Assembly: GCA_964019135.1 (NCBI GenBank)
Contig: OZ025260.1
Span: 33,660,254-33,724,253 of the forward strand
Direction of reading: 5' to 3'
From: Arenicola marina
Taxonomy: Eukaryota > Annelida > Polychaeta > Arenicolidae
Length of the DNA stretch: 64,000 nucleotides
The notes under the pieces were generated by a model, which searched no databases, had not been told where the DNA came from, and saw only the letters and a program-made list of their open reading frames with translations. A program made the position numbers and the translations under genes. Position 1 is the first letter of the stretch. Every line of letters begins with the position of its first letter. Shown here in pieces: positions 15,425 through 58,877 of the stretch.

Positions 15425-15620
15425 TCCTACAGGGAAACATCCTTGGCTCAGTTGGTCAGCGGTAGGTCGAGAGGTCGTGGGTTCGAATCCTGCGACATGT
15501 CTCATCCAACCCAATTCATTGTTCCCGAAAATATCTTGGCCTCCATGTGCGCGCAATTGGTCTAAAACACCACCGTTTTACATTCATTGTAGGATATCCA
15601 CGGGCAATTCCGATGAGCTT
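15425..15620 (+). mobile_element. tRNA-derived SINE copy (family member b)
   Basis: The A-box region ggctcagttggtcagc and B-box gtgggttcgaatcctg are well preserved. The tail has cttggcctccatgtgcgcg and ctaaaacacc, matching the central domain of the other copies. Confidence 0.75.
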
Positions 15621-25785: not shown

Positions 25786-25890
25786 TTGGTTGGTGGAGAA
25801 TTCGAGCTGGAAACGAACTTCATCATTCAGGACCCACAAAATGTGGTCCACATGTTGGGTCTCATGGATACCTGTTCCAGCACACTACAG
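25786..25890 (+). CDS. NBEA/LRBA: NBEA/LRBA exon 1 in window (codons 1-35)
   Basis: The acceptor is tcttttcag and the donor gtgaga, phase 0 at both ends. It begins [16 protein letters not shown], the family segment following the first helix of the N-terminal armadillo-like region. An upstream start exon must exist but was not found between the gap and here. A 16-base piece of this exon (25839-25854) is repeated in the next intron at 25921-25936. Confidence 0.92.
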
Positions 25891-28800
25891 GTGAGATAAT
25901 GAGTGACCATAGAACTCATCAAATGTGGTCCACATGACTCTTCCCGCCATTACCCTGGTGTGATCTTTCCCGCCATTACCCTGGTTTGACTTTTGCGCTA
26001 TTAGCCTGGTTTGACTCTTCCCGCCGCTGGCCTGGTTTGACTTTTCCCGCTATTAGCCTGGTTTGACTCTTCCCGCCATTAGCCAGGTTTGTCTCTTCCC
26101 GCCATTATCCTGGTTTGACTTTTCCCTCTATTAACCTGGTTTGACTCTTCCCGCCATTAGCCTGGTTTGACTTTTCCCGCCATTATCCTGGTTTGACTCT
26201 TCCCGCCATTAGCCTGGTTTCACTCTTCCCGCCGCTAGCGTGGTTTGACTCTTCCCGCCGCTAGCCAGGTTTGACTTCCCGCCATTAGCCTGGTTTGACT
26301 TCCCGCCGCTAGCCTGGTTTGACTTCCCGCCATAAGCCTGGTTTGACTTTTCCCGCTATTAGCCTGGTTTGACTCTTCCCGCCGCTAGCGTGGTTTGATT
26401 CTTCCCGCCGCTAGCCTGGTTTGACTTCCCGCCATAAGCCTGGTTTGACTTTTCCCGCTATTAGCCTGGTTTGACTCTTCCCGCCGCTAGCGTGGTTTGA
26501 CTTTTCCCGCCATTATCCTGGTTTGACTCTTCCCACCATTAGCCTGGTTTGACTTTTCCCGTCATTATCCTGGTTTGACTTTTCCCGCCGCTAGCCTGGT
26601 TTGACTTTTCCCGCCATTAGCCAAGATTGACTTTTCCCGCCATTATCCTGGTTTGACTCTTGCCGACATTAGCCTGGTTTGACTCTTCCCGCCATTATCC
26701 TGGTTTGACTCTTCCCACCATTTGCCTGGTTTGACTCTTCCCGTCATTAGCCTGGTTTGACTCTTCCCGCCATCAGCCTGGTTTGACTTTTCCCGCCATT
26801 ATCCTGGCTTGACTTTTCCCACCATTAGCCTGGTTTGTGAGGTGTTTAACCGGAAGTTTCCTGTGTGTTTCTGCGGCAGGCCGAGGTGTGGAGCCACTTT
26901 ACAGCCATCCTGCGGAAGAGTACTCGCAATCTGCAGGCGTGCACGGAGGTGGGGCTGGTGGAGCGGGCTCTCACCAGACTCACGGCGGCAGACGACATCC
27001 TCGCCGGTGAGTGCTCAAAGACGCCACACACCCGGGGAGCGTCTCACTAAGAGTTGCGGCCTCATAACCATATCGTTTACCTACTAATTTAACGACAGTT
27101 TGTAATTTTACGAGCAACGGGAATAAGCATTATAGTGCGATGATGGAGGCGCAGCTATCTTCGTGCAGTTTCTTTTCCGCCAATATTATTAAGCACTATG
27201 TTTGCCATATGTTTATATGAAAAAGTTAAGATATCTTAACTGACAGCCAGGCAGGCGAGCTGATAACAGTACATTTGTTAGGACAAAAATCTTCCCGGAT
27301 ATGGCGATATAATTGCAATTGTCGTCGATGCTATAGCTGTGCTATATTATCTGATGAGAGTGTCCTGCTTGCTTATTGATTCGGGGGGGGGGGGGGGTGA
27401 CTGCATGACGTGATATCCGCATGGGATATTGACCATATAACTGATGTGAGATGTATAAGTCAAGGGAAGTGGGAGCAAGTTATATATATATTTCAATGGT
27501 ATTATCAGGAATTATTGCAGAATTATTAAGATGTAGCACATGTGTGCACTTGTTTAGTGTTGGGACTATAGCGTTCGACTGAGATTTATACTATGGAAAT
27601 ATATCCAGGATCCATGTTGCCTGCTATTTATATATATGTTTCCTATATATTGATATTTTTTTATTATTATTAGTTCCATAATCGTACAGCAATTTGAGAT
27701 ATCAGAGAGACATAGCACTTGTTATATGTGCTGACAATGTATGGTCATTACTAAACACGTGACGCTTTGAGCCTGCCCATAATGCCTGGGGGTTGTGTGT
27801 TTCAGAGCTGCCCATAATGCTTGGGGGGTTGTGTGTTTCAGAGCTGCCCATAATGCCTGGGGGTTGTGTGTTTCAGAGCTGCCCATAATGCCTGGGGGGT
27901 TGTGTGTTTCAGAGCTGCCCATAATGCCTGGGGGTTGTGTGTTTCAGAGCTGCCCATAATGCCTGGGGGGTTGTGTGTTTCAGAGCTGCCCATAATGCCT
28001 GGGGGGTTGTGTGTTTCAGAGCTGCCCATAATGCCTGGGGGTTTGTGTGTTTCAGAGCTGCCCATAATGCCTGGGGAGTTGTGTGTTTCAGAGCTGCCCA
28101 TAATGCCTGGGGGGGTTGTGTGTTTCAGAGCTGCCCATAATGCCTGGGGGTTTGTGTGTTTCAGAGCTGCCCATAATGCCTGGGGGGTTGTGTGTTTCAG
28201 AGCTGCCCATAATGCCTGGGGGGTTGTGTGTTTCAGAGCTGCCCATAATGCCTGGGGGGTTGTGTGTTTCAGAGCTGCCCATAATGCCTGGGGGTTTGTG
28301 TGTTTCAGAGCTGCCCATAATGCCTGGGGAGTTGTGTGTTTCAGAGCTGCCCATAATGCCTGGGGAGTTGTGTGTTTCAGAGCTGCCCATAATGCCTGGG
28401 GAGTTGTGTGTTTCAGAGCTGCCCATAATGCCTGGGGGTTTGTGTGTTTCAGAGCTGCCCATAATGCCTGGGGGGTTGTGTGTTTCAGAGCTGCCCATAA
28501 TACCTGGGGGGTTGTGTGTTTCAGAGCTGCCCATAATGCCTGGGGGGTTGTGTGTTTTAGAGCTGCCCATAATGCCTGGGGGGTTGTGTGTTTCAGAGCT
28601 GCCCATAATGCCTGGGGGTTTGTGTGTTTCAGAGCTGCCCATAATGCCTGGGGAGTTGTGTGTTTCAGAGCTGCCCATAATGCCTGGGGGGTTGTGTGTT
28701 TCAGAGCTGCCCATAATGCCTGGGGGGTTGTGTGTCTCAGAGCTGCCCATAATACCTGGGGGGTTGTGTGTTTCAGAGCTGCCCATAATGCCTGGGGGGT

Positions 28801-31800
28801 TGTGTGTTTTAGAGCTGCCCATAATGCCTGGGGGGTTGTGTGTTTCAGAGCTGCCCATAATGCCTGGGGGTTTGTGTGTTTCAGAGCTGCCCATAATGCC
28901 TGGGGAGTTGTGTGTTTCAGAGCTGCCCATAATGCCTGGGGGGTTGTGTGTTTCAGAGCTGCCCATAATGCCTGGGGGGTTGTGTGTTTCAGAGCTGCCC
29001 ATAATGCCTGGGGGGTTGTGTGTTTCAGAGCTGCCCATAATGCCTGGGGGTTGTGTGTTTCAGAGCTGCCCATAATGCCTGGGGGGTTGTGTGTCTCAGA
29101 GCTGCCCATAATGCCTGGGGGGTTGTGTGTTTCAGAGCTGCCCATAATACCTGGGGGGTTGTGTGTTTCAGAGCTGCCCATAATGCCTGGGGGTTTGTGT
29201 GTTTCAGAGCTGCCCATAATGCCTGGGGGTTTGTGTGTTTCAGAGCTGCCCATAATGCCTGGGGAGTTGTGTGTTTCAGAGCTGCCCATAATGCCTGGGG
29301 GGTTGTGTGTTTCAGAGCTGCCCATAATGCCTGGGGAGTTGTGTGTTTCAGAGCTGCCCATAATGCCTGGGGGGTTGTGTGTTTCAGAGCTGCCCATAAT
29401 GCCTGGGGGTTGTGTGTTTCAGAGCTGCCCATAATGCCTGGGGGGTTGTGTGTTTCAGAGCTGCCCATAATACCTGGGGGGTTGTGTGTTTCAGAGCTGC
29501 CCATAATGCCTGGGGGGTTGTGTGTCTCAGAGCTGCCCATAATGCCTGGGGGGTTGTGTGTTTCAGAGCTGCCCATAATGCCTGGGGAGTTGTGTGTTTC
29601 AGAGCTGCCCATAATGCCTGGGGGGGTTGTGTGTTTCAGAGCTGCCCATAATGCCTGGGGGGTTGTGTGTTTTAGAGCTGCCCATAATGCCTGGGGTGTT
29701 GTTAGTTTCAGAGCTGCCCATAATGCCTGGGGGGTTGTGTGTTTCAGAGCTGCCCATAATGCCTGGGGGGTTGTGTGTTTCAGAGCTGCCCATAATACCT
29801 GGGGGGTTGTGTGTTTCAGAGCTGCCCATAATGCTTGGGGGGTTGTGTGTTTCAGAGCTGCCCATAATGCCTGGGGGGTTGTGTGTTTCAGAGCTGCCCA
29901 TAATGCCTGGGGGGTTGTGTGTCTCAGAGCTGCCCATAATGCCTGGGGGGTTGTGTGTTTCAGAGCTGCCCATAATGCCTGGGGGGGTTGTGTGTTTCAG
30001 AGCTGCCCATAATGCCTGGGGGGTTGTGTGTTTTAGAGCTGCCCATAATGCCTGGGGGGGTTGTGTGTTTCAGAGCTGCCCATAATGCCTGGGGTGTTGT
30101 GTGTTTCAGAGCTGCCCATAATACCTGGGGGGTTGTGTGTTTCAGAGCTGCCCATAATGCCTGGGGGTTTGTGTGTTTCAGAGCTGCCCATAATGCCTGG
30201 GGGGTTGTGTGTTTCAGAGCTGCCCATAATGCCTGGGGGGTTGTGTGTTTCAGAGCTGCCCATAATGCCTGGGGGGTTGTGTGTTTCAGAGCTGCCCATA
30301 ATGCCTGGGGGGTTGTGTGTTTCAGAGCTGCCCATAATGCCTGGGGGGTTGTGTGTTTCAGAGCTGCCCATAATGCCTGGGGGGTTGTGTGTTTTAGAGC
30401 TGCCCATAATGCCTGGGGGGTTGTGTGTTTCAGAGCTGCCCATAATGCCTGGGGGTTGTGTGTTTCAGAGCTGCCCATAATGCCTGGGGAGTTGTGTGTT
30501 TCAGAGCTGCCCATAATGCCTGGGGGGTTGTGTGTTTCAGAGCTGCCCATAATACCTGGGGGGTTGTGTGTTTCAGAGCTGCCCATAATGCCTGGGGGGT
30601 TGTGTGTTTCAGAGCTGCCCATAATGCCTGGGGGGTTGTGTGTTTCAGAGCTGCCCATAATGCCTGGGGGGGTTGTGTGTTTCAGAGCTGCCCATAATGC
30701 CTGGGGGTTGTGTGTTTCAGAGCTGCCCATAATACCTGGGGGGTTGTGTGTTTCAGAGCTGCCCATAATACCTGGGGGGTTGTGTGTCTCAGAGCTGCCC
30801 ATAATGCCTGGGGGGTTGTGTGTTTCAGAGCTGCCCATAATGCTTGGGGGGTTGTGTGTTTCAGAGCTGCCCATAATGCCTGGGGGGTTGTGTGTTTCAG
30901 AGCTGCCCATAATGCCTCGGGGGGTTGTGTGTTTCAGAGCTGCCCATAATGCCTGGGGTGTTGTGTGTTTTAGAGCTGCCCATAATGCCTGGGGTGTTGT
31001 TAGTTTCAGAGCTGCCCATAATGCCTGGGGGGTTGTGTGTTTCAGAGCTGCCCATAATGCCTGGGGGGTTGTGTGTTTCAGAGCTGGCCATAATGCCTGG
31101 GGAGTTGTGTGTTTCAGAGCTGCCCATAATGCCTGGGGGGTTGTGTGTTTCAGAGCTGCCCATAATGCCTGGGGGGTTGTGTGTTTCAGAGCTGCCCATA
31201 ATGCCTGGGGGGTTTGTGTGTTTCAGAGCTGCCCATAATGCCTGGGGGGTTGTGTGTTTCAGAGCTGCCCATAATGCCTGGGGGTTGTGTGTTTCAGAGC
31301 TGCCCATAATGCCTGGGGGGGTTGTGTGTTTCAGAGCTGGCCATAATGCCTGGGGGTTGTATGTTTCAGAGCTGCCCATAATGCCTGGGGGTTGTGTGTT
31401 TCAGAGCTGCCCATAATGCCTGGGGGGGTTGTGTGTTTCAGAGCTGCCCATAATGCCTGGGGGGTTGTGTGTTTCAGAGCTGCCCATAATGCCTGGGGGG
31501 TTGTGTGTTTCAGAGCTGCCCATAATGCCTGGGGGGTTGTGTGTTTCAGAGCTGCCCATAATGCCTGGGGGTTTGTATGTTTCAGAGCTGCCCATAATGC
31601 CTGGGGGGTTGTGTGTTTCAGAGCTGCCCATAATGCCTGGGGGTTTGTGTGTTTCAGAGCTGCCCATAATGCCTGGGGGGTTGTGTGTTTCAGAGCTGCC
31701 CATAATGCCTGGGGGGTTGTGTGTTTCAGAGCTGCCCATAATGCCTGGGGGGTTGTGTGTTTCAGAGCTGCCCATAATGCCTGGGGGTTTGTGTGTTTCA

Positions 31801-34800
31801 GAGCTGCCCATAATGCCTGGGGGGTTGTGTGTTTCAGAGCTGCCCATAATGCCTGGGGGGTTGTGTGTTTCAGAGCTGCCCATAATGCCTGGGGGGTTGT
31901 GTGTTTCAGAGCTGCCCATAATGCCTGGGGGGTTGTGTGTTTCAGAGCTGCCCATAATGCCTGGGGGTTGTGTGTTTCAGAGCTGCCCATAATGCCTGGG
32001 GGGTTGTGTGTTTCAGAGCTGCCCATAATGCCTGGGGGGTTGTGTGTTTCAGAGCTGCCCATAATGCCTGGGGGGTTGTGTGTTTCAGAGCTGCCCATAA
32101 TGCCTGGGGGGTTGTGTGTTTCAGAGCTGCCCATAATGCCTGGGGGGTTGTATGTTTCAGAGCTGCCCATAATGCCTGGGGGTTTGTGTGTTTCAGAGCT
32201 GCCCATAATGCCTGGGGGTTTGTGTGTTTCAGAGCTGCCCATAATGCCTGGGGGTTTGTGTGTTTCAGAGCTGCCCATAATGCCTGGGGGGTTGTGTGTT
32301 TCAGAGCTGCCCATAATGCCTGGGGGGTTGTGTGTTTCAGAGCTGCCCATAATGCCTGGGGGGTTGTGTGTTTCAGAGCTGCCCATAATGCCTGGGGGGT
32401 TGTGTGTTTCAGAGCTGCCCATAATGCCTGGGGGGTTGTGTGTTTCAGAGCTGCCCATAATGCCTGGGGGTTTGTGTGTTTCAGAGCTGCCCATAATGCC
32501 TGGGGGGTTGTGTGTTTCAGAGCTGCCCATAATGCCTGGGGGGTTGTGTGTTTCAGAGCTGCCCATAATGCCTGGGGGGTTGTGTGTTTCAGAGCTGCCC
32601 ATAATGCCTGGGGGGTTGTGTGTTTCAGAGCTGCCCATAATGCCTGGGGGTTGTGTGTTTCAGAGCTGCCCATAATGCCTGGGGGGTTGTGTGTTTCAGA
32701 GCTGCCCATAATGCCTGGGGGGTTGTGTGTTTCAGAGCTGCCCATAATGCCTGGGGGGTTGTGTGTTTCAGAGCTGCCCATAATGCCTGGGGGTTGTGTG
32801 TTTCAGAGCTGCCCATAATGCCTGGGGGGTTGTGTGTTTCAGAGCTGCCCATAATGCTTGGGGGGTTGTGTGTTTCAGAGCTGCCCATAATGCCTGGGGG
32901 GTTGTGTGTTTCAGAGCTGCCCATAATGCCTGGGGGGTTGTATGTTTCAGAGCTGCCCATAATGCCTGGGGGTTTGTGTGTTTCAGAGCTGCCCATAATG
33001 CCTGGGGGTTTGTGTGTTTCAGAGCTGCCCATAATGCCTGGGGGTTTGTGTGTTTCAGAGCTGGCCATAATGCCTGGGGGTTTGTGTGTTTCAGAGCTGC
33101 CCATAATGCCTGGGGGGTTGTGTGTTTCAGAGCTGGCCATAATGCCTGGGGGTTGTGTGTTTCAGAGCTGCCCATAATGCCTGGGGGGTTGTGTGTTTCA
33201 GAGCTGCCCATAATGCCTGGGGGGTTGTGTGTTTCAGAGCTGCCCATAATGCCTGGGGGGTTGTATGTTTCAGAGCTGCCCATAATGCCTGGGGGTTTGT
33301 GTGTTTCAGAGCTGCCCATAATGCCTGGGGGGTTGTGTGTTTCAGAGCTGCCCATAATGCCTGGGGGGTTGTATGTTTCAGAGCTGCCCATAATGCCTGG
33401 GGGGTTGTATGTTTCAGAGCTGCCCATAATGCCTGGGGGGTTGTGTGTTTCAGAGCTGCCCATAATGCCTGGGGGGTTGTGTGTTTCAGAGCTGCCCATA
33501 ATGCCTGGGGGGTTGTGTGTTTCAGAGCTGCCCATAATGCCTGGGGGGTTGTGTGTTTCAGAGCTGCCCATAATGCCTGGGGGGTTGTGTGTTTCAGAGC
33601 TGCCCATAATGCCTGGGGGTTGTGTGTTTCAGAGCTGGCCATAATGCCTGGGGGTTGTGTGTTTCAGAGCTGCCCATAATGCCTGGGGGTTTGTGTGTTT
33701 CAGAGCTGCCCATAATGCCTGGGGGTTTGTGTATTTCAGAGCTGCCCATAATGCCTGGGGGGTTGTGTGTTTCAGAGCTGCCCATAATGCCTGGGGGGTT
33801 GTGTGTTTCAGAGCTGCCCATAATGCCTGGGGGTTGTGTGTTTCAGAGCTGCCCATAATACCTGGGGGGTTGTGTGTTTCAGAGCTGCCCATAATGCCTG
33901 GGGGTTTGTGTGTTTCAGAGCTGCCCATAATGCCTGGGGGTTTGTGTATTTCAGAGCTGCCCATAATGCCTGGGGGGTTGTGTGTTTCAGAGCTGCCCAT
34001 AATGCCTGGGGGTTTGTGTATTTCAGAGCTGCCCATAATGCCTGGGGGGTTGTGTGTTTCAGAGCTGCCCATAATGCCTGGGGGGTTGTGTGTTTCAGAG
34101 CTGCCCATAATGCCTGGGGGTTGTGTGTTTCAGAGCTGCCCATAATACCTGGGGGGTTGTATGTTTCAGAGCTGCCCATAATGCCTGGGGTGTTGTGTGT
34201 TTCAGAGCTGCCCATAATGCCTGGGGGGTTGTGTGTTTCAGAGCTGCCCATAATGCCTGGGGGGTTGTGTGTTTCAGAGCTGCCCATAATGCCTGGGGGG
34301 TTGTGTGTTTCAGAGCTGCCCATAATGCCTGGGGGTTTGTGTGTTTCAGAGCTGCCCATAATGCCTGGGGGGTTGTGTGTTTCAGAGCTGCCCATAATGC
34401 CTGGGGGGTTGTGTGTTTCAGAGCTGCCCATAATGCCTGGGGGTTTGTGTGTTTCAGAGCTGCCCATAATGCCTGGGGGGTTGTGTGTTTCAGAGCTGGC
34501 CATAATGCCTGGGGGGTTGTGTGTTTCAGAGCTGCCCATAATGCCTGGGGGTTTGTGTGTTTCAGAGCTGCCCATAATGCCTGGGGGGTTGTGTGTTTCA
34601 GAGCTGCCCATAATGCCTGGGGGTTTGTGTGTTTCAGAGCTGCCCATAATGCCTGGGGGTTTGTGTGTTTCAGAGCTGCCCATAATGCCTGGGGGTTTGT
34701 GTGTTTCAGAGCTGCCCATAATGCCTGGGGGGTTGTGTGTTTCAGAGCTGCCCATAATGCCTGGGGGTTGTGTGTTTCAGAGCTGGCCATAATGCCTGGG

Positions 34801-49800: not shown

Positions 49801-52800
49801 ATTGTAAGAGCATACTCATAGAGCGTGTGATTATTGTAAGAGCATACTCATACAGCGTGTGATTATTGTAAGAGCATACTCATACAGCGTGTGATTATTG
49901 TAAGAGCATACTCATACAGCGTGTGATTATTGTAAGAGCATACTCATACAGCGTGTGATTATTGTAAGAGCATACTCATACAGCGTGTGATTATTGTAAG
50001 AGCATACTCATACAGCGTGTGATTATTGTAAGAGCATACTCATACAGCATGTGATTATTGTAAGAGCATACTCATACAGCGTGTGATTATTGTAAGAGCA
50101 TACTCATACAGCATGTGATTATTGTATGAGCATACTCATACAGCGTGTGATTATTGTAAGAGCATACTCATACAGCGTGTGATTATTGTAAGAGCATACT
50201 CATAGAGCATGTGATTATTGAAAGAGCATACTCATACAGCGTGTGATTATTGTAAGAGCATACTCATACAGCGTGTGATTATTGTAAGAGCATACTCATA
50301 CAGCGTGTGATTATTGTAAGAGCATACTCATAGAGCATGTGATTATTGTAAGAGCATACTCATACAGCGTGTGATTATTGTAAGAGCATACTCATAGAGC
50401 ATGTGATTATTGAAAGAGCATACTCATACAGCGTGTGATTATTGTAAGAGCATACTCATAGAGCATGTGATTATTGAAAGAGCATACTCATACAGCATGT
50501 GATTATTGTAAGAGCATACTCATACAGCGTGTGATTATTGTAAGAGCATACTCATAGAGCATGTGATTATTGAAAGAGCATACTCATTCAGCGTGTGATT
50601 ATTGTAAGAGCATACTCATACAGCGTGTGATTATTGTAAGAGCATACTCATAGAGCATGTGATTATTGAAAGAGCATACTCATTCAGCGTGTGATTATTG
50701 TAAGAGCATACTCATACAGCGTGTGATTATTGTAAGAGCATACTCATACAGCATGTGATTATTGTAAGAGCATACTCATAGAGCATGTGATTATTGAAAG
50801 AGCATACTCATACAGCATGTGATTATTGTAAGAGCATACTCATACAGCGTGTGATTATTGTAAGAGCATACTCATAGAGCGTGTGATTATTGTAAGAGCA
50901 TACTCATAGAGCGTGTGATTATTGTAAGAGCATACTCATACAGCGTGTGATTATTGTAAGAGCATACTCATACAGCGTGTGATTATTGTAAGAGCATACT
51001 CATACAGCGTGTGATTATTGTAAGAGCATACTCATAGAGCATGTGATTATTGAAAGAGCATACTCATACAGCATGTGATTATTGTAAGAGCGTACTCATA
51101 CAGCGTGTGATTATTGTAAGAGCATACTCATAGAGCGTGTGATTATTGTAAGAGCATACTCATAGAGCATGTGATTATTGTAAGAGCATACTCATACAGC
51201 GTGTGATTATTGTAAGAGCATACTCATACAGCGTGTGATTATTGTAAGAGCATACTCATACAGCGTGTGATTATTGTAAGAGCATACTCATACAGCGTGT
51301 GATTATTGTACGAGCATACTCATACAGCGTGTGATTATTGTAAGAGCATACTCATACAGCGTGTGATTATTGAAAGAGCATACTCATTCAGCGTGTGATT
51401 ATTGTAAGAGCATACTCATACAGCGTGTGATTATTGTAAGAGCATACTCATACAGCGTGTGATTATTGTAAGAGCATACTCCTACAGCGTGTGATTATTG
51501 TATATGCAAACTGGCCGGCGGCAAATACACTGATGGGTTGTTATGTGGCTGTGCTCACCCCCTGCAGGCGGAAGCATGACTCGATGACCCCCCACAACCT
51601 CTTCTCCCTGCTGACGGAGCGCCTGTCCCTGCACAGCAGTCAGCTCACCATGGCAACCTACAACGTCCTCTTTGAGGTGAGTGCCGCTACAGATATAGTG
51701 GTCTGCTTGTTCTGTATACGTCAAGTTATGGGAAGTTTATATTTTACGTAATTAATTTTTACGTAAAGTCTGGAGAAGGTGCTATCTAGCAGTCACCTCG
51801 AACAAACATAGTAACAATCCTTTCTTAATGCGAAGTAAAGATAAGTAATGAATTCATCAAAAGTGGAAAGCTTCTGTGTTCGAACATTGTGACAGCCTTT
51901 GGATGGAATCAAAGAGCACAACCAGACACCGGTGGCACCTCCAAGGCTCATTCAAGACATTGATGATCCATATTGACTAATGCTTGTAAGAGAGTGGAAA
52001 TAACACATGGAAGATAATGGAATGTTTATTTCATGCTTGTGCGGGTCCGATCTTCGTTAATTAACCACGTGGTGAAAATAGTGATGGTCGATAATAGAGA
52101 GTGTGGCGAGCTACTTCCAGTTAATCTGAACACGTGATGAATATAGTGATGGTCGATAATAGGAAGTATGGCGTCTTACTTCCAGTTATTATAACTACAT
52201 GGTGAATATAGTGATGGTCGATAATGGGGAGTTCTACTTGCAGATAATGACGGAGCGCATGAACCACGATATCTTGACGGAGAAGCACCCGGAGCCCGAC
52301 TCCAACTACAGGCTGGAGAACCCATGTAAGTCATAGAAATTGAGTTTATAATTTAATTTAACGTTCCACTTGCCTGTGTATTGTGTGAGAAATGGCCCTT
52401 TGGATTTTGCTGATTAAATAGGCCTGCTACTGTTTAATAGTTTAATGGGATTAACATTGCGGTCGTTCTTACATGTTGAGGCGAACCATTGTTGCAGCAT
52501 ATCTCCCGTATGACTCACGTCTACCGTTTCATACAATAATCTATTTCGTGGACTTTAACATGGAAGATGGATATAATTGCCGAACATAATTGTATTTCGG
52601 CGGGTCTGCATTTTTAATGTCATTGTTGTTGTTGATGTCGTTGTTGTTGCCGCTCCAGTGGTGCTGAAGGTAGTGGCCAACCTGATACGGCAGTCTAAGC
52701 AGACCGATGAGGTGTTGGACGTGAAGCACCTCTTCCTGTCCGACCTCACCATCCTGTGTAACAACAACAGGGACAACAGGAGGTAGGAGCGCCGGGCTAG

Positions 52801-55800
52801 GACCTGGGGGTGGGGCGACTTGGCGCACTTGGAAATGGCTCTGGTTAAAATCTGCCTGTCAGCTATACTGACCGCGTTCATACACTCTACATGGTGTATG
52901 CTGGCTGTTCCTTGTTTAGCCGGTTTGTACTCAAAGGTGGCCTAAAACCCCAGTCCATCCATCCATCTTGCTGACGCCCCACCGGTGTACACACCTGTTA
53001 TACCCCAGTCCATCCATCCATCTTGCTGACGCCCCACCGGTGTACACACCTGTTATACCCCAGTCCATCCATCCATCTTGCTGACGCCCCACCGGTGTAC
53101 ACACCTGTTATACCCCAGTCCATCCATCCATCTTGCTGACGCCCCACCGGTGTACACACCTGTTATACCCCAGTCCATCCATCCATCTTGCTGACGCCCC
53201 ACCGGTGTACACACCTGTTATACCCCAGTCCATCTATCCATCTTGCTGACGCCCCACCGGTGTACATACCTGTTATACCGCAGTCCATCCATCCATCTTG
53301 CTGACGCCCCACCGGTGTACATACCTGTTATACCCCAGTCCATCCATCCATCTTGCTGACGCCCCACCGGTGTACATACCTGTTATACCCCAGTCCATCC
53401 ATCCATCTGGCTGACGCCCCACCGGTGTACACACCTGTTATACCCCAGTCCATCCATCCATCTTGCTGACGCCCCACCGGTGTACACACCTGTTATACCC
53501 CAGTCCATCCATCCATCTTGCTGACGCCCCACCGGTGTACACACCTGTTATACCCCAGTCCATCCATCCATCTTGCTGACGCCCCACCGGTATACACACC
53601 TGTTATACCCCAGTCCATCCATCCATCTTGCTGACGCCCCACCGGTGTACATACCTGTTATACCCCAGTCCATCCATCCATCTTGCTGACGCCCCACCGG
53701 TGTACACACCTGTTATACCCCAGTCCATCCATCCATCTTGCTGACGCCCCACCGATGTACACACCTGTTATACCGCAGTCCATCCATCCATCTTGCTGAC
53801 GCCCAACCGGTGTACACACCTGTTATACCCCAGTCCATCCATCCATCTTGCTGACGCCCCACCGGTGTACATACCTGTTATACCCCAGTCCATCCATCCA
53901 TCTTGCTGACGCCCCACCGGTGTACACACCTGTTATACCCCAGTCCATCCATCCATCTTGCTGACGCCCCACCGGTGTACATACCTGTTATACCCCAGTC
54001 CATCCATCCATCTTGCTGACGCCCAACCGGTGTACACACCTGTTATACCCCAGTCCATCCATCCATCTTGCTGACGCCCCACCGGTGTACACACCTGTTA
54101 TACCCCAGTCCATCCATCCATCTTGCTGACGCCCAACCGGTGTACACACCTGTTATACCCCAGTCCATCCATCCATCTTGCTGACGCCCCACCGGTGTAC
54201 ATACCTGTTATACCCCAGTCCATCCATTCATCTTGCTGACGCCCCACCGGTGTACACACCTGTTATACCCCAGTCCATCCATCCATCTTGCTGACGCCCC
54301 ACCGGTGTACACACCTGTTATACCCCAGTCCATCCATCCATCTTGCTGACGCCCCACCGGTGTACACACCTGTTATACCCCAGTCCATCCATCCATCTTG
54401 CTGACGCCCCACCGGTGTACACACCTGTTATACCCCAGTCCATCCATCCATCTTGCTGACGCCCCACCGGTGTACACACCTGTTATGCCCCAGTCCATCC
54501 ATCCATCTTGCTGACGCCCCACCGGTGTACACACCTGTTATACCCCAGTCCATCCATCCATCTTGCTGACGCCCCACCGGTGTACACACCTGTTATGCCC
54601 CAGTCCATCCATCCATCTTGCTGACGCCCCACCGGTGTACACACCTGTTATACCCCAGTCCATCCATCCATCTTGCTGACGCCCCACCGGTGTACACACC
54701 TGTTATGCCCCAGTCCATCCATCCATCTTGCTGACGCCCCACCGGTGTACACACCTGTTATACCCCAGTCCATCCATCCATCTTGCTGACGCCCCACCGG
54801 TGTACACACCTGTTATCCCCCAGTCCATCCATCCATCTTGCTGACGCCCCACCGGTGTACACACCTGTTATCCCCCAGTCCATCCATCCATCTTGCTGAC
54901 GTCCCACCGGTGTACACACCTGTTATACCCCAGTCCATCCATCCATCTTGCTGACGCCCCACCGGTGTACACACCTGTTATACCCCAGTCCATCCATCCA
55001 TCTTGCTGACGCCCCACCGGTGTACACACCTGTTATGCCCCAGTCCATCCATCCATCTTGCTGACGCCCCACCGGTGTACACACCTGTTATACCCCAGTC
55101 CATCCATCCATCTTGCTGACGCCCCACCGGTGTACACACCTGTTATCCCCCAGTCCATCCATCCATCTTGCTGACGCCCCACCGGTGTACACACCTGTTA
55201 TGCCCCAGTCCATCCATCCATCTTGCTGACGCCCCACCGGTGTACACACCTGTTATACCCCAGTCCATCCATCCATCTTGCTGACGCCCCACCGGTGTAC
55301 ACACCTGTTATCCCCCAGTCCATCCATCCATCTTGCTGACGCCCCACCGGTGTACACACCTGTTATCCCCCAGTCCATCCATCCATCTTGCTGACGCCCC
55401 ACCGGTGTACACACCTGTTATACCCCAGTCCATCCATCCATCTTGCTGACGCCCCACCGGTGTACACACCTGTTATACCCCAGTCCATCCATCCATCTTG
55501 CTGACGCCCCACCGGTGTACACACCTGTTATGCCCCAGTCCATCCATCCATCTTGCTGACGCCCCACCGGTGTACACACCTGTTATACCCCAGTCCATCC
55601 ATCCATCTTGCTGACGCCCCACCGGTGTACACACCTGTTATGCCCCAGTCCATCCATCCATCTTGCTGACGCCCCACCGGTGTACACACCTGTTATACCC
55701 CAGGCGTATGTATGGCGTGTGCCACGTTATCGTAACAGGCGCTTTAAATGTCGTCTGCTTTTTTCCCCGCCACCAGGACGGTGCTGCAGATGTCGGTGTG

Positions 55801-58156
55801 GCAAGACTGGCTCTTCTCGATGGCGTACATCTACCCCCAGAACGAGGACGAGAAGAAGATCACGGAGATGGTGATGTCGCTCTTCCGGATGTTGCTGCAC
55901 CACGCCATGAAGTACGAGTACGGGGGCTGGCGCGTCTGGATCGACACTCTGGCTATACTCCACTCCAAGGTCAGTGCTCAAGGTCATCAACGTAATGATG
56001 CTACTCAACTTAAAGGTTGGTGCTAAAGCTCATACGGGCACTTGCCTTATCTCAGTCCAAGGACAGTGATTAAAATGTTCCATACACTGGGTATACTCCA
56101 CTCAAAGGTCAGTTCCCAATGTCGTTCAAACAGTTGTCAAATTTATGCATATATGGCCATATTCCACTCCAAGGTCAGTTCTCAACATCTTCAAAGTTCA
56201 TTATCATAATCTACTATCAGTTAGTAAGTTCTCAAGGTCATCCACTCATTGGCCTTATCCCATCCCATTAAATACCCCGGGGCCCTGATGGGAGTAAACA
56301 CCAACCGTACAGTGGTTGCCTCCCACCGTTCTACATGTATATGATGTGCGGACGCCGTGGTTGCAGGTGTCGTACGAGGACTTTAAGATCCACATGGCCC
56401 GGATGTACCAGCAGTACGAGCGGCAGCAAGTATACCACATCTCGGACCCGGCTCTCCGCCAGCAGCACCCGGTCAGCACCATCTCGGGGCTGTCTCAGGA
56501 CGCCGACACCATCGCCAGGAGCCAGGAGACCAGCACCGTCAGGATCACCGAGCTCACGGACACCAGCGACCAGGGCACGCAGGCCAGCGACCAAGGTCAA
56601 GGTCAGGGTGGCGAGGACGTCTCGGCGGGTGCCGCCGCGCCTGAAGGTCAGAGCGAGGTCAAGGTTGAAGGAGGCGGTGACCTTGACCTTAGTGATGCCC
56701 CTGAGAGCGGTCGGGATGGGAAGGAAGAGCGGTTGGAGGCCTATTCCCTGTTGGGCTTTGACGAGAACGTGGTGCAGTTCGTGCAAGAGATTGTCGAGGA
56801 AGTGGTCAGCAGGGTCGGAGGGGAAGCGCCGTCTTCCCAAGGTGAAGCTCAAACCAAATCTGAAGGTCAAGCTGCACCTGAGGATGACGCCGCAGCTGGT
56901 GATACCAAAGTCGCCTCCGATCAGGCGCAAGAGCAGAGTTCAGCAGACTCGGAGGGTGGGCCCCAGGCCGGGGCCGCGGAAGCCCGCGTCCAGGCCGCCC
57001 CGGAGGGGGTACCGGCCGTGACCCCCCAGGCCCGGGAGGGCAATCCGGACGAGCACCAGAGCCAGGCGGAGGCTGATGCGACAGAGAAGGAATCTAGCTT
57101 GACAGGTAAGAAGGCAGTGACGTTCAGAGGCAATAGAGTTGATCGCATAAATGCTTAAGTTCATACTCTATGTAAACTATTGTCACTTTCTTCCATTATC
57201 GCCCACCTTCTGACGCACGTGGTTTCCCCGCAGGCTTGAAGAACCAGTCGACCTCCACCGGCGCGGCGGGCGCCACGGGTGAGGAAGGGACCCCCCCACC
57301 AGCCGGGGCCGAGGGTGATGATGAGGGGGAGGGTGAGGGTCGCCCGGACAAGCTGCCACTGTCTGAGGGGAGCGGGCAGCCAGCCACCCCCAGCCGGCAG
57401 ATCTTCAGCCCCGGGCCGCGCGCCCCACCGTTCCGGATCCCGGAGTTCCGCTGGTCCTACCTCCACCAGAAGCTGCTCTCCGACCTGCTCTTCTCCCTGG
57501 AGCAGGACATCCAAGTCTGGAAGACGTGAGTCCCTGAGTCTCACATGTCTCTGTCCTAGCTCGTATGGAGTTCAGTATGGAGTATTGGAGATCAAATCTG
57601 GGGCTGCGTGTTCTATATTTGTATAACTTTGTATTGCACAGATCATCTTTACTTCTGGTTACAGAAGGAATCAAATAGCTGTAAATGTACTCCCTGTCTC
57701 ATTTGATAAGCAGTCTGAGCTGCAGACACACAGGTCATGGGTTCGAACCCTGGTAGCTGTGCCTTGTTATTTAATCCCATTTCAATATCCCAGGAGGTAG
57801 CCTGGGCTTCATGTACGCGAAACTGGTAATGGCTGAATGCGGGCGATATGGGAAGGTGCTGGTGTCAATGTGTATTAGGGGTTAAATGGGTTGGTTATGC
57901 CAGGGAATAAATACAATATTGAAGGGGATTAGCTGATGGATGTATAGGAGGAAACAGCTTGGTTCTCGCCTGTGTCCTGATCAAGCCCTCTTCCCGCCGC
58001 AGACACAGCACCAAGAACGTCATCGACTTCGTCAACGCTTCGGAGAACCACGTGTTCGTTGTCAACGTAACGCACATGATCTCCCAGCTAGCCGACAACC
58101 TGATCACGGCTTGTGGAGGGCTGCTGCCACTTCTAGCCGCCGCCACCTCCCCCAAC
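25786..58156 (+). CDS. NBEA/LRBA: Neurobeachin/LRBA-family BEACH protein, N-terminal half (24 exons, partial)
   Basis: Large scaffold protein of the BEACH family (vertebrate NBEA and LRBA, Drosophila rugose/AKAP550), which acts in vesicle and receptor trafficking and anchors PKA. The 24 exons listed below sum to 3747 bases and join without a stop into 1249 codons, with matching phases at all 23 introns. Order: armadillo-like helices (codons 1-143), concanavalin A-like domain (about 150-320), DUF4704-type helical region (about 335-870), acidic low-complexity linker (about 880-1160) with a predicted RII-binding helix (989-1004), then a conserved segment from SPGPR to LLAAATSPN. Residues resemble both vertebrate paralogues (LRBA-like YNVLFE and [13 protein letters not shown]-like VSTISGLS), as expected for a pre-duplication invertebrate gene. 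The first exon(s) and the DUF1088, PH, BEACH and WD40 parts are absent from the window. Introns are dominated by minisatellites, many of which contain copies of the gene's own splice junctions. Confidence 0.95.
25921..25936 (+). repeat. Copy of an exon 1 fragment in the following intron
   Basis: Sixteen bases identical to 25839-25854 inside exon 1, 82 bases apart, directly abutting the 26-bp array. Confidence 0.75.
25937..26838. repeat. 26-bp minisatellite (cctggtttgactcttcccgc)
   Basis: About 34 diverged copies with attagcc/attatcc and actcttccc/acttttccc variants, occasionally shortened. The common variant TTTTCCCGCC equals the E2F consensus. Fills nearly all of the intron between exons 1 and 2. 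Confidence 0.93.
26880..27006 (+). CDS. NBEA/LRBA: NBEA/LRBA exon 2 (codons 36-77)
   Basis: The acceptor is ctgcggcag and the donor gtgagt, ending in phase 1. It reads [19 protein letters not shown], then [11 protein letters not shown] and DDILA, one of the most conserved N-terminal blocks of NBEA/LRBA. Confidence 0.95.
27007..27769. other. NBEA/LRBA intron, AT-rich single-copy
   Basis: Nothing recognised except a G run near 27385-27397. Confidence 0.5.
27770..35537 (+). repeat. 36-bp array of exon 3 acceptor copies, about 216 units
   Basis: The unit is agctgcccataatgcctggg plus a G run of variable length and ttgtgtgtttcag. Length varies 35-37 only through the G run. The real acceptor (tgtgtgtttcag before agctgctgattgatatgc) is the last in register, and exon 3's first bases align to the unit (agctgc, then atgc-tgggg). 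Each unit therefore carries an acceptor and an exon-start-like segment reading ELPIMPGGL against exon [10 protein letters not shown]. Long open frames on both strands are by-products. Confidence 0.95.
35538..35638 (+). CDS. NBEA/LRBA: NBEA/LRBA exon 3 (codons 78-111)
   Basis: The acceptor tgtgtgtttcag is the last site of a 36-bp array containing about 216 near-identical acceptors. The donor gtaatt is weak. It reads (E)[19 protein letters not shown] and on to LLFSMLKG. The split first codon gives Glu where I recall Asp in vertebrates. Confidence 0.95.
35639..35905. other. NBEA/LRBA intron, single-copy
   Basis: Nothing recognised between donor gtaatt and the next array. Confidence 0.5.
35906..36325. 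repeat. 71-bp minisatellite, six copies
   Basis: The unit contains gggtaagccccagggtgac and gggctggcccgaccgccgtg. Copies differ at only a few positions. Each has a donor-like ggaggGTAAGC, but no resemblance to the neighbouring exon ends was found. Confidence 0.94.
36440..36600 (+). mobile_element. tRNA-derived SINE copy (family member c)
   Basis: B-box tcgtgggttcgaaccctg intact, then cctgggaggttacttggccc and cctaaaata. Best-preserved central domain of the four copies. Intronic in NBEA/LRBA. Confidence 0.75.
36907..37002 (+). CDS. NBEA/LRBA: NBEA/LRBA exon 4 (codons 112-143)
   Basis: The acceptor is ccaccacag and the donor gtgagt, phase 0 on both sides. It reads [20 protein letters not shown] and on to YSLPGKKGA, the end of the armadillo-like region leading into the lectin-like domain. 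Confidence 0.95.
37195..37262 (-). mobile_element. Possible tRNA-like remnant, minus strand
   Basis: The minus strand reads ctatagctcagctgatatgc then atcgaccattgaacg, resembling an A-box and D-arm. No B-box seen, so tentative. Confidence 0.35.
37438..37559 (+). CDS. NBEA/LRBA: NBEA/LRBA exon 5, start of ConA-like domain (codons 144-183)
   Basis: The acceptor is catctag and the donor gtaaga, ending in phase 2. It reads [20 protein letters not shown] and on to EKPYLY, the first strands of the concanavalin A-like/laminin-G-type domain. Confidence 0.95.
37963..38089 (+). CDS. NBEA/LRBA: NBEA/LRBA exon 6, ConA-like domain (codons 184-226)
   Basis: The acceptor is cacgacag and the donor gtgggt. 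It reads (C)[19 protein letters not shown] and on to [17 protein letters not shown], ending in phase 0. Confidence 0.95.
38090..39180. other. NBEA/LRBA intron, single-copy
   Basis: No array in this intron. Two related segments (ttgcctggcggtcac at about 38983 and gccaggctggcggttc at about 39097) may be remnants of an interspersed element. An open frame 38371-38730 matches nothing I recognise. Confidence 0.4.
39181..39399 (+). repeat. 69-bp array of exon 7 acceptor copies
   Basis: Pseudo-exon starts at 39262 and 39331 precede the real one at 39400, each after tcctctgtttgcag. The first 16 exon bases (tggtacatggtgtcag) are identical in all three. A fourth copy at 39212 has lost the exon-start bases. 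Confidence 0.93.
39400..39519 (+). CDS. NBEA/LRBA: NBEA/LRBA exon 7, ConA-like domain (codons 227-266)
   Basis: The acceptor tgtttgcag is the third of three in-register copies spaced 69 bp apart (39262, 39331, 39400). The donor is gtatgt. It reads [19 protein letters not shown] and on to LVSTND, phase 0 at both ends. Confidence 0.95.
39735..40288 (+). repeat. 43-bp array, possible exon 8 acceptor copies
   Basis: About 12 units, diverged at the 5' end and nearly identical near 40050-40229, containing gtgatatcccacatcagccg then ttttgttagatagagc. CAG followed by CCGTT equals the real junction (cag, ccgttcgac), with pseudo-starts at 40143, 40186 and 40229. The last step to the real site is 60 rather than 43, so the relation is only probable. 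Confidence 0.8.
40289..40435 (+). CDS. NBEA/LRBA: NBEA/LRBA exon 8, ConA-like domain (codons 267-315)
   Basis: The acceptor is ctctttgcag and the donor gtcaga is weak. It reads [20 protein letters not shown], then [13 protein letters not shown] and QLGSGYK, which closes the lectin-like fold. Confidence 0.95.
40436..40870. other. NBEA/LRBA intron, AT-rich single-copy
   Basis: Nothing recognised between exon 8 and the 44-bp array. Confidence 0.45.
40871..41133. repeat. 44-bp minisatellite, six copies
   Basis: The unit contains gtcacatgtagcgtcattga then cacaacatgctgctgtac. Near-identical copies. No convincing link to exon 9. Confidence 0.93.
41214..41270 (+). CDS. NBEA/LRBA: NBEA/LRBA exon 9 (codons 316-334)
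   Basis: A 57-base exon between catttcag and gtgagt, phase 0 at both ends, reading [19 protein letters not shown]. It corresponds to a short variable connecting segment in the family. Confidence 0.88.
41533..41736 (+). CDS. NBEA/LRBA: NBEA/LRBA exon 10 (codons 335-402)
   Basis: The acceptor is cctccag and the donor gtaggt, phase 0 at both ends. It reads [17 protein letters not shown], then [13 protein letters not shown] and [16 protein letters not shown] at the end. The last 48 bases plus nine intron bases are the unit of the array that follows. Because the ending is conserved across the family, the exon copy must be the ancestral one. Confidence 0.96.
41689..43593 (+). repeat. 57-bp array of exon 10 3' end plus donor, about 33 copies
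   Basis: The unit is nine intron bases (gtaggttgt) plus the last 48 exon 10 bases, so every copy recreates gtgcag followed by gtaggt and encodes [16 protein letters not shown]. Variants: ggcaaggag followed by gtacgt at three places (41788, 42450, 43413), 55-bp units, cacacca for cacagca. 57 is a multiple of three and the unit has no stop in the exon frame. Read in that frame it gives 19-residue repeats until the first 55-bp unit. Confidence 0.97.
43852..43934 (+). CDS. NBEA/LRBA: NBEA/LRBA exon 11 (codons 403-429)
   Basis: The acceptor is ttgtgtttcag and the donor gtgagc, ending in phase 2. It reads [20 protein letters not shown] and ends VDYTI, the start of the DUF4704-type helical region. 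The donor lies one unit length upstream of a 35-bp array. Confidence 0.94.
43938..45119 (+). repeat. 35-bp array at exon 11 donor, about 33 copies, partly dimeric
   Basis: The unit contains agacaggacagtgtagcaca then ggtccgctgtcct. AGGACAG and CTGTCCT are inverted, giving a 7-bp stem. cagtgtag and cagtttag units often alternate, making a 70-bp dimer. The intron's first bases (gtgagcac) are one unit length before gtagcac of the first unit, so the real donor lies in register. Confidence 0.92.
45280..45388 (+). CDS. NBEA/LRBA: NBEA/LRBA exon 12 (codons 430-466)
   Basis: The acceptor is accttgcag and the donor gtaggt. It reads (C)[19 protein letters not shown] and on to [11 protein letters not shown], ending in phase 0. 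Reading continues open into the intron, but nothing there is conserved. Confidence 0.95.
45389..45832. other. NBEA/LRBA intron, single-copy
   Basis: Reading remains open from exon 12 to 45721 but with no family resemblance. No repeat seen. Confidence 0.45.
45833..45985 (+). CDS. NBEA/LRBA: NBEA/LRBA exon 13 (codons 467-517)
   Basis: The acceptor is gctttttcag and the donor gtaaat, phase 0. It reads [20 protein letters not shown] and on to [20 protein letters not shown], matching the family's conserved [10 protein letters not shown] block. Confidence 0.96.
46105..46621 (+). repeat. 53-bp array of exon 14 acceptor copies, nine plus the real site
   Basis: Acceptors tatgttctacag with pseudo-exon starts at 46145, 46198, 46251, 46304, 46357, 46410, 46463, 46516 and 46569. 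The real start 46622 is exactly 53 further. Units are virtually identical to each other. Against the exon, 16 of the first 24 bases match ([10 protein letters not shown] versus [10 protein letters not shown]). Confidence 0.95.
46622..46790 (+). CDS. NBEA/LRBA: NBEA/LRBA exon 14 (codons 518-573)
   Basis: The acceptor gttgtacag is the tenth in a perfect 53-bp register with nine upstream copies. The donor is gttagt, phase 1. It reads [20 protein letters not shown] and on to [20 protein letters not shown]. Confidence 0.96.
46791..47098. other. NBEA/LRBA intron 14, single-copy
   Basis: A few tgacgtcat motifs near 46887 and 46930, then AT-rich sequence. Confidence 0.4.
47099..47241 (+). CDS. NBEA/LRBA: NBEA/LRBA exon 15 (codons 574-621)
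   Basis: The acceptor is gatccag and the donor gtcggt. It reads (D)[19 protein letters not shown] and on to [16 protein letters not shown], phase 0 at the end. Confidence 0.95.
47242..47734. other. NBEA/LRBA intron 15, single-copy
   Basis: A G run at 47320-47340, otherwise nothing recognised. Confidence 0.4.
47735..47832 (+). CDS. NBEA/LRBA: NBEA/LRBA exon 16 (codons 622-653)
   Basis: The acceptor is cccctcag and the donor gtatgt, ending in phase 2. It reads [20 protein letters not shown] and on to [12 protein letters not shown], with a split Arg codon. Confidence 0.95.
47990..48175. repeat. About 38-bp diverged minisatellite, five copies
   Basis: Markers aatgtctatct and gtgtcaaaa/ccgtcaaaa recur at roughly 38-bp steps. 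Old and diverged. No link to exon 16 or 17 ends seen. Confidence 0.8.
48246..48338 (+). CDS. NBEA/LRBA: NBEA/LRBA exon 17 (codons 654-684)
   Basis: The acceptor is ggttgcag and the donor gtaggt, phase 2. It reads (R)[19 protein letters not shown] and ends FFLMRSTH. The last 11 exon bases plus the donor recur three times at 47-bp spacing in the following intron. Confidence 0.94.
48328..48525 (+). repeat. 47-bp array of exon 17 3' end plus donor
   Basis: agcacgcacaa followed by gtaggtcaaac occurs at the real junction (48339) and again with donors at 48386, 48433 and 48480, exactly 47 apart. A partial fifth copy ends near 48523. Confidence 0.95.
48526..48866. other. NBEA/LRBA intron 17, single-copy part
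   Basis: Nothing recognised. Confidence 0.4.
48867..51502. repeat. 32-bp array, about 82 copies
   Basis: The unit contains gtgtgattattgtaagagca then tactcatacagc. Variants include catagagc, catgtgatt and tgaaagagc, and the gaaagagc type clusters at 50200-51400. Period is constant at 32. Link to the exon 18 acceptor not convincing. Confidence 0.96.
51568..51676 (+). CDS. NBEA/LRBA: NBEA/LRBA exon 18 (codons 685-721)
   Basis: The acceptor is cccctgcag and the donor gtgagt. It reads (K)[19 protein letters not shown] and ends MATYNVLFE. It follows a 2.6-kb array of a 32-bp unit. Confidence 0.95.
51677..52060. other. NBEA/LRBA intron 18, single-copy part
   Basis: Nothing recognised. Confidence 0.4.
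52061..52243 (+). repeat. Diverged three-copy repeat of the exon 19 acceptor region
   Basis: tagtgatggtcgataat followed within 20-30 bases by tacttccag or tacttgcag occurs three times. Pseudo-starts are 52121 and 52186; the real start is 52244. The downstream bases ttaat align with exon ataat. Confidence 0.75.
52244..52325 (+). CDS. NBEA/LRBA: NBEA/LRBA exon 19 (codons 722-748)
   Basis: The acceptor is tctacttgcag and the donor gtaagt, phase 1. It reads [20 protein letters not shown] and on to NYRLENP. Two diverged copies of the acceptor region precede it. Confidence 0.93.
52326..52658. other. NBEA/LRBA intron 19, single-copy
   Basis: A gttgtt-rich stretch at 52625-52650, otherwise nothing recognised. 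Confidence 0.4.
52659..52782 (+). CDS. NBEA/LRBA: NBEA/LRBA exon 20 (codons 749-789)
   Basis: The acceptor is cgctccag and the donor gtagga. It enters with TG completing a Leu codon, then reads [20 protein letters not shown] and ends NNNRDNR, phase 2. Confidence 0.95.
52942..55705. repeat. 55-bp array, about 50 copies
   Basis: The unit contains ccagtccatccatccatctt then gctgacgccccaccggtgta. Very homogeneous, with atacccc/atgcccc/atccccc and acacac/acatac variants arranged in runs. Its 5' border continues a sequence related to 24390-24421. Confidence 0.97.
55777..55969 (+). CDS. NBEA/LRBA: NBEA/LRBA exon 21 (codons 790-854)
   Basis: The acceptor is gccaccag and the donor gtcagt. It reads (R)[19 protein letters not shown], then [20 protein letters not shown], the strongly conserved YE-GGWRVW-DTL block. 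Diverged copies of its last bases plus donor follow in the intron at 46-bp spacing. Confidence 0.96.
55953..56190 (+). repeat. Diverged 46-bp repeat of exon 21 3' end plus donor
   Basis: Real junction at 55970 (ccactccaag, gtcagtgctc). Related junctions at 56016 (aacttaaag, gttggtgct), 56062 (agtccaag, gacagtg, donor lost), 56108 (cactcaaag, gtcagtt) and 56174 (cactccaag, gtcagtt). The first three steps are exactly 46. Confidence 0.8.
56367..57105 (+). CDS. NBEA/LRBA: NBEA/LRBA exon 22, acidic linker with AKAP-type helix (codons 855-1100)
   Basis: A 739-base exon between ggttgcag and gtaaga. It begins [20 protein letters not shown], then has the family's VSTISGLS motif, then a low-complexity Glu/Gly/Ala/Gln-rich linker expected to be disordered. 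Within it, [18 protein letters not shown] (codons 987-1004) is an isolated amphipathic segment matching the PKA RII-binding pattern. Vertebrate NBEA and fly AKAP550 are known RII binders. The linker itself is poorly conserved in the family, so its boundaries rest on the open frame and matching phases. Confidence 0.93.
56769..56816 (+). other. Predicted PKA RII-anchoring amphipathic helix within exon 22
   Basis: The 16 residues [16 protein letters not shown] place aliphatic or aromatic side chains at spacing 0, 3-4, 7-8, 11-12, 15 (V, FV, IV, VV, V), the A-kinase anchoring consensus. It sits in an otherwise hydrophilic disordered linker, as in vertebrate NBEA, where an RII site lies between DUF4704 and DUF1088. 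Inferred from pattern only. Confidence 0.7.
57234..57525 (+). CDS. NBEA/LRBA: NBEA/LRBA exon 23 (codons 1101-1197)
   Basis: The acceptor is ttccccgcag and the donor gtgagt. A further low-complexity stretch (Gly/Glu/Pro-rich) is followed by the conserved block [20 protein letters not shown] and [13 protein letters not shown], where family conservation resumes after the linker. Ends in phase 2. Confidence 0.95.
57526..57699. other. NBEA/LRBA intron 23, first part
   Basis: Single-copy, nothing recognised. Confidence 0.4.
57700..57850 (+). mobile_element. tRNA-derived SINE copy (family member d)
   Basis: gtctgagctgcagacacaca then ggtcatgggttcgaaccctg, followed by ggaggtagcctgggcttcat, in the same order as the copy at 36440. 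Lies in the intron before exon 24. Confidence 0.75.
58003..58156 (+). CDS. NBEA/LRBA: NBEA/LRBA exon 24, last recognised (codons 1198-1249)
   Basis: The acceptor is cccgccgcag and the donor gtgagt. It reads (T)[18 protein letters not shown] and on to [17 protein letters not shown] and LLAAATSPN, phase 0. The last roughly 27 bases plus the donor are repeated ten times immediately downstream. The next expected exon (family block after the TSP motif) is not found up to 64000. Confidence 0.95.
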
Positions 58157-58645
58157 GTGAGTACCCCCCCCCCTCTCCTGGCCGCCGCCACGTCCCCCAA
58201 CGTGAGTACCCCCCCCCCCCCCTCTCCTGGCCGCCGCCACCTCCCCCAACGTGAGTACCCCCCCCCCTCTCCTGGCCGCCGCCACTTCCCCCAACGTGAG
58301 TAGCCCCCTCCCTCTCCTGGCCGCCGCCACATCCCCCAACGTGAATACCCCCACCCCCTCTCCTGGCCGCCGCCACCTCCCCCAACGTGAGTACCCCCCC
58401 CCCCTCTCTCCTAGCCGCCGCCACCTCCCCCAACGTGAGTACCCCCCCTCTCTCCTAGCCGCCGCCACCGCCCCCAACGTGAGTACCCCCGCCCTCCTGG
58501 CCGCCGCCACCTCCCACAACGTGAGTACCCATCCCCCCCCCACTCTCCTGGCCGCCGCCACCTACCCCAACGTGAGTACCCTCCCCTGGACGCCGCCCCC
58601 CCCCCCCCACTCTCCTAGCAGCCGCCACCTCCCCCAATGTGAGTA
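58125..58645 (+). repeat. About 45-bp array of exon 24 3' end plus donor, ten copies
   Basis: The unit is ctcctggccgccgccacctc then ccccaac and gtgagtacc with a variable C run. Donors lie at about 58157 (real), 58202, 58249, 58294, 58340 (gtgaat), 58387, 58434, 58480, 58519, 58571 and 58638. Each copy encodes [13 protein letters not shown] residues. Confidence 0.94.
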
Positions 58646-58877
58646 CCCCTACCCCTGAACGTTTTCAGCCTGGCGACGATCGTGCAGCCGTTTCTCACTG
58701 CGCTCTCATCCCGTGCCACCACTGTCTTCTTCAACCCAAGTAATGCCCCCCCCACTCCCTCCCCTAAACAATGCCTCGCTCAGCACCAGTGAATCCCTCG
58801 CGCCACCGATACCGAAGTCCTACTGCGCACCCTCTCGTGCTAACGACCGCGGTCAACAGGTAAAGTCATAATCAAGA

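Follow-up and report, generated by a model that had tools for sequence, protein, structure and literature searches.

How a gene comes to carry, within its introns, tandem arrays built from copies of its own splice junctions, and what such copies mean for splicing, are the questions raised by a neurobeachin gene found in a stretch of 64,000 nucleotides (the window in what follows). The sequence-only reading of this stretch had proposed that at least six introns of the gene contain arrays whose unit includes the neighbouring splice site and the edge of the neighbouring exon, that the exon is the source of the array, and that either tandem duplication is repeatedly seeded at exon-intron borders or arrays of decoy sites are tolerated or useful. 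The analysis described here indicates that the arrays are mirage-type minisatellites and probably tolerated by-products of a minisatellite-prone genome.

The gene fragment lies on the + strand at 25786..58156 and consists of 24 coding exons (E1 to E24), with GT-AG borders throughout and 3747 nt of coding sequence that read through, with no stop, into 1249 amino acids; exon ends were set by reading the sequence and were then checked. Pfam detects DUF4704 (634 bits), Laminin_G_3 and the Neurobeachin solenoid in the predicted protein and, among the matches listed in a protein search (120 of 267), neurobeachin, LRBA and BEACH-type proteins make up most of those with descriptive names, the best-scoring named relatives being molluscs; a match to a solved structure was not obtained at E 0.001. 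Neither an upstream first exon nor the exon following E24 was recognised within the 64-kb window. The shortest intron measures 128 nt, and the model of 24 exons gives no sign of a new intron or exon. When exon-proximal splicing is assumed, the nine printed junctions, aligned with seven homologues (from the closest relative to rat), show a single gap overall, a lone dash in the Apis sequence opposite the final residue of E24, which is also the end of the fragment.

Arrays were collected with Tandem Repeats Finder, which yielded 15 distinct intronic arrays with a unit of at least 26 nt in the neurobeachin gene. This number leaves out the in-gene rows with units under 26 nt (37846-37886, 46951-47003, 37264-37307, 36593-36622, 52623-52649 and 40441-40465), rows that overlap an array already counted, and any array lying upstream of 25785, a part without exon model. 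Abundant minisatellites are the background of this locus, since the 15 arrays fill 19,962 of the 32,915 bases (approx. 61%) of the gene region 25786-58661.

Probes of 60 nt, taken from all 47 junctions of the model, were aligned locally to the arrays (at most 2500 bases per array) after removal of the 30 intron bases beside each intron's own junctions. In 7/15 arrays the own junction comes first among the 47; six of these arrays match strongly, with scores of 39 (E3 acceptor), 50 (E7 acceptor), 60 (E10 donor), 38 (E14 acceptor), 41 (E17 donor) and 54 (E24 donor), while the seventh is the E19 acceptor with a score of 16; against these seven arrays, no junction from another intron scores above 15. 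The best own-junction score in the remaining eight arrays is 5-10, ranking from 4th to 46th. The six strong matches, with scores between 38 and 60, fall at exactly the places that the sequence-only reading had named, i.e. the acceptors of E3, E7 and E14 and the donors of E10, E17 and E24. That reading had also suggested a comparison of arrays with their flanking junctions which, run within this gene, comes out in its favour: the own-junction scores of the 15 arrays sum to 357, against a mean of 130 (sd 20.6) and a maximum of 296 upon random assignment of arrays to introns, so that the permutation p is at its floor, the observed total never being reached in 20,000 trials. Exon-internal control probes gave no score of at least 13 in any of 110 probe-intron pairs. 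Furthermore, when each of the 47 junctions was compared with its own intron (at most 3000 bases) and with 100 dinucleotide shuffles of it, the six strong junctions and the E21 donor scored 28-60, and shuffled maxima were 12-20 (best 18 of 47 printed). As a separate observation, two large arrays at 48866-51502 (32-nt units) and 52947-55703 (55-nt units) match the junctions of their own introns not above chance.

In each of the six strong cases, all on the + strand, the site that is probably used lies in register with the array. The E3 acceptor array (27773..35543) is the largest, with about 217 units of 36 nt, of which some 26 nt are exon-like and some 10 nt intron-like by alignment, and its last unit carries the presumed acceptor at 35537/35538. 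The other two acceptor arrays are those of E7 (39214..39424; 3.1 units of 69 nt, presumed site 39399/39400 in the last unit) and E14 (46119..46639; 10 units of 53 nt, presumed site 46621/46622, again in the last unit). The donor arrays have the presumed site in their first unit: E10 (41689..43610; about 35 units of 57 nt, 48 exon plus 9 intron nt; site 41736/41737), E17 (48328..48521; 4.1 units of 47 nt, 11 of them exonic; site 48338/48339) and E24 (58136..58661; about 12 units of approx. 45 nt, 21 of them exonic; site 58156/58157). By eye, a degenerate copy of the E7 unit also seems to be present just upstream of that array, at 39178-39213. Copy numbers across the strong arrays range from 3 to 217. 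The spacing of the site motif is 36 in 163/203 steps at E3 (with 35, 37 and multiples also present), 69 at E7 (2/2), 57 at E10 (21/28), 53 at E14 (9/9) and 47 at E17 (3/3), and it is irregular around 45 at E24 (42-51 and one 67, over 10 steps); the steps of 36, 47, 53, 57 and 69 given previously are, in this way, all recovered. A normal protein is obtained with the first unit of each of the three donor arrays and with the last unit of each of the three acceptor arrays, i.e. with the exon-proximal site in 6/6 cases, from which we infer that the working splice site is kept beside the exon and the normal protein retained.

The comparison of the working copy with its array bears on which of the two, exon or array, came first. 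Identities on the intron side and on the exon side, respectively, are 36/36 and 20/26 (E3), 49/51 and 23/25 (E7), 50/51 and 51/51 (E10), 52/53 and 14/18 (E14), 46/47 and 9/9 (E17), and 44/45 and 27/30 (E24), with E21 (30/41 and 18/20) and E19 (45/54 and no exon letters aligned) in addition. The exon part is thus identical to the array at E17 and E10 and matches it at 14/18 to 27/30 in E3, E7, E14 and E24. At E14, the working copy is array-like on the intron side and less so on the exon side, which favours the reading preferred here. Translated in the exon frame, the exon reads WYMVSVVHI and the neighbouring array unit WYMVSEVYS at E7; the corresponding pairs are VQNKLYEYM and IEIKLYRYH at E14, and LLIDMLGVL and LPIMPGGLC at E3. 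The family alignment fits the exon versions at E3, E7 and E14 and not those of the array, with the exception of the third E14 residue, where the array and the nearest relative share an I and the exon has N. That the exon keeps the letters of the family at these three acceptors while the array has drifted supports the exon as the likely source of the array, in agreement, but for this one E14 residue, with what had been claimed.

These features are best accommodated by a sequence of events in which a short tandem duplication would span an exon-intron border, with one copy retained as the functional border, since the protein depends on it, and the other becoming intronic. Slippage or unequal exchange would then multiply and homogenize the intronic copies, which would diverge from the exon and, in the end, decay, while splicing would take the exon-proximal copy, first in donor arrays and last in acceptor arrays. 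The copies themselves, their register, their specificity for the own junction and, in three cases, their exon source are observed, as is the range of array states, almost uniform at E3 and E14 and decayed at E21; the mode of duplication, the neutrality of the arrays and the actual use of the sites are deduced from this pattern.

The decayed end of the range is found where the sequence-only reading had listed weaker cases (exons 8, 11, 19 and 21), a list that stands in part. At E21 it is the donor that is repeated: the interval 55950..56242 (+ strand), which is not listed by Tandem Repeats Finder, contains the E21 donor and five diverged intronic stretches like it (56002-56242), scoring 29, 28, 18, 15 and 13 against a shuffled maximum of 12, and these stretches are best described as a decayed array of donor copies. 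The E19 acceptor array (52056..52243, + strand; 65-nt unit) is a borderline match on the intron side (p 0.069 with 100 shuffles, 0.025 with 1500 shuffles), and its best unit alignment lies wholly within the intron, with 0 exon letters aligned, so that inclusion of the boundary in the unit is not found. The acceptors of E8 (p 0.43) and E21 (p 1.0) and the donor of E11 (p 0.86) are at chance level and were rejected as junction copies. Elsewhere, the E3 donor has a weak in-register copy at 35817-35856 (28/40 letters, score 14, p 0.007, weak given 47 tests), perhaps another decayed case, and the E15 acceptor has a weak score of 12 (p 0.002, likewise weak given 47 tests). In exon 1, a 16-nt stretch (AAATGTGGTCCACATG) at 25839 is repeated 82 bases on, at 25921; this second copy of AAATGTGGTCCACATG, which the junction probe missed, lies just inside intron 1 and adjoins the start of a 26-nt array.

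Whether borders are preferred sites of array birth was approached by collapsing each array to one unit, which gives a gene of 13.8 kb with 3.7 kb exonic, and by placing units at random but not wholly within exons, a placement being scored as a crossing when the unit included one junction and extended 6 nt or more to both sides of it. Depending on unit length, 7-24% of placements cross a junction, and 2.3 crossings are expected in 15 arrays against the 6 seen (P 0.017, in a post hoc test on a window selected for the feature). Counting the E19 array as a seventh would lower P to 0.0036 and raise the excess, but it should not be counted, because its unit alignment contains no exon letters and fails the exon overlap demanded by the null. 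The excess agrees, weakly, with the earlier proposal that duplication is repeatedly seeded at borders. In such a scenario, borders would be preferred seeds of tandem duplication in this genome, owing for instance to DNA breaks coupled to splicing or to short sequence matches close to the splice sites, and the arrays would thereafter be neutral; the decayed E21 case, which comes on top of the count, points in the same direction, as does AGCACG, which begins the E17 unit and ends the E17 array and may be a 6-nt microhomology or a partial last copy. However, AGCACG lies away from the splice site, the other five strong arrays offer four outward matching letters at the far edge of E3 and, for the rest, scattered matches only, and a single gene, picked for the feature, provides all of the evidence; preferential seeding is possible but, at present, a rather unlikely explanation. 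It is similarly doubtful that intronic minisatellites arise again and again from borders in a spiralian lineage, independently of amphioxus, with a large share of genic arrays being junction-built and splicing ignoring hundreds of near-perfect decoys; were it so, splicing or transcription at the border may be linked to the birth of an array.

Usefulness of the decoys, i.e. that they tune splicing, for instance via degraded transcripts or in-frame inserts, finds encouragement in the AG or GT being kept in nearly all copies, and in unit lengths that are a multiple of three in 4/6 strong junction arrays versus 0/9 others (Fisher p 0.011, or 0.026 with E19 counted among the junction arrays, both post hoc), a hint that frame may matter. 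Also, a minisatellite of C. elegans is over-represented near multiple alternative splicing decisions according to PMC4039745, so that an influence of intronic minisatellites on splicing is possible in principle. Against this, the core letters are invariant in E3 (217 units) and E14 (10 units) and vary in 3% (E10, 35 units) and 8% (E24, 12 units), much as the median position of the unit does, which is likewise invariant in E3 and E14; since core and median position vary alike, no constraint is visible, and selection is neither shown nor excluded. By exact motif, a count that leaves out units lacking it, there are 258 decoys (203 at E3, 31 at E10, 10 at E24, 9 at E14, 3 at E17 and 2 at E7), of which three, one each at E3, E10 and E24, keep the phase and an open frame; the other 255/258 shift the phase or meet a stop, two of the E24 decoys being phase-shifting with no stop as far as can be judged with the next exon outside the window. 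Decoys that mostly add in-frame repeats are ruled out by these 3/258, indels disrupt the frame within the E3, E10 and E24 arrays, and copy numbers span 3 to 217. A useful role, as proposed earlier, is without support here and seems very unlikely, and the other half of that proposal, tolerated decoys, fits the evidence. An assembly artefact or a wrong exon model, with misassembled arrays or matched ‘junctions’ that are not used, is conceivable in that 36-nt units repeated over 7.8 kb are difficult to assemble and copy numbers may be wrong, and a misassembled mirage is noted in PMC3087553; the six arrays, unrelated to one another, each matching a junction of its own and most of them with copy variants, argue against it, as do the decayed E21 case, the 24 GT-AG exons, the open frame of 1249 amino acids and the near-gapless junction alignments, and it seems very improbable. 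The reading as tolerated by-products is the probable one, and the points that count against it are the excess of junction-crossing arrays, the multiple-of-three units and the E14 residue (I in the array, N in the exon).

The placement of the host was taken from a protein tree of 31 rows (midpoint root, no amphioxus row, phylum labels assigned by us), in which the predicted protein belongs to a 17-row clade (support 100/100) together with 13 named spiralians and three other proteins. Its sister there is P0150 (74% identity), and it does not fall into the mollusc fork; the echinoderm and vertebrate rows, seven in all, make up another clade, likewise with 100/100. The spiralian placement was also obtained in a cruder tree built before, and an amphioxus host was rejected on the position of the protein in the 31-row tree (itself lacking an amphioxus row). 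The cephalochordate host of the known mirages is not found here, the protein grouping with spiralians and apart from the deuterostome rows; such a host is treated as the known range of mirages rather than as a defining feature, whereas the property that defines them, a unit spanning the border between an exon and an intron of its own gene, is strongly evident in 6/15 arrays.

In amphioxus, minisatellite-like duplications of intron-exon boundaries in two globin genes have been called mirages, after earlier work on Adh3, and the accessible text of that report describes lengths that differ between haplotypes, undisturbed splicing and a mechanism termed unclear (PMC3087553). Similar repeats occur in PGBD5, and troponin C is cited as a further case, in an extract of PMC3902484. 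As far as these excerpts go, the amphioxus mirages (BflGb6, BflGb9, Adh3 and troponin C) have the same boundary-spanning units at donors or acceptors, often with AG/GT; units measure 10-72 nt in Adh3, 150-160 in the globin genes, and 60 and 108 in PGBD5, in comparison with 36-69 nt here, and BflGb6 haplotypes have 3 and 6 copies where up to about 217 are found here. Unlike the amphioxus mirages, which have a cephalochordate host, those described here have a host that groups with spiralians, and six strong junctions and one decayed are gathered in a single gene.

Boundary repeats are found in human genes as well. A human minisatellite reportedly provides multiple splice donors, going by the title of a study of Turri et al. 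1995 (Nucleic Acids Res 23:1854), the gene being said to be 6-16, also IFI6 or G1P3; many donors from one minisatellite are common to that case and the present one, but there a single donor in a single gene is concerned. In human segmental-duplication genes, minisatellites with units of about 30 bp on average are located at exon-intron boundaries, with 27 intron modifications (PMC2812944, in part); with approx. 4 units, they are said in the same excerpt to create novel introns and alternative transcripts, whereas the arrays discussed here are seemingly inert within existing introns. A tandem duplication carrying AG/GT is also the starting point for introns gained by internal duplication (Rogers 1989, Zhuo 2007, and Gao and Lynch 2009, cited by PMC3087553), but here the 24-exon model contains no new intron or exon. 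Among spiralians, earthworm metallothionein genes have minisatellites in a first intron, the available portion of the report making no mention of junctions within the units (PMC12783039), and no report of junction-built arrays in spiralians was found in the literature searched, which excluded most subscription journals. Within that search, what is new is the spiralian host and the density, the kind being already known from amphioxus and human. The locus extends to another animal branch a phenomenon in print for those two, and offers arrays of several apparent ages in one gene. Two questions become testable with it, namely whether tandem repeats are seeded at exon-intron borders above chance and how, with up to some 200 near-identical sites on offer, a single one is chosen in splicing.

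Outside the junction arrays, ARAGORN (tRNA) and Rfam at gathering thresholds returned nothing within the 64-kb window. Two large minisatellites, at 4786-7235 (54-nt units) and 11540-12067 (73-nt units), look tRNA- or SINE-like by eye, and GGTTCGA(A/T)(T/C)CC, which we take to be a B-box-like motif of tRNA-derived elements, occurs three times on the + strand, at 15480, 36481 and 57740.
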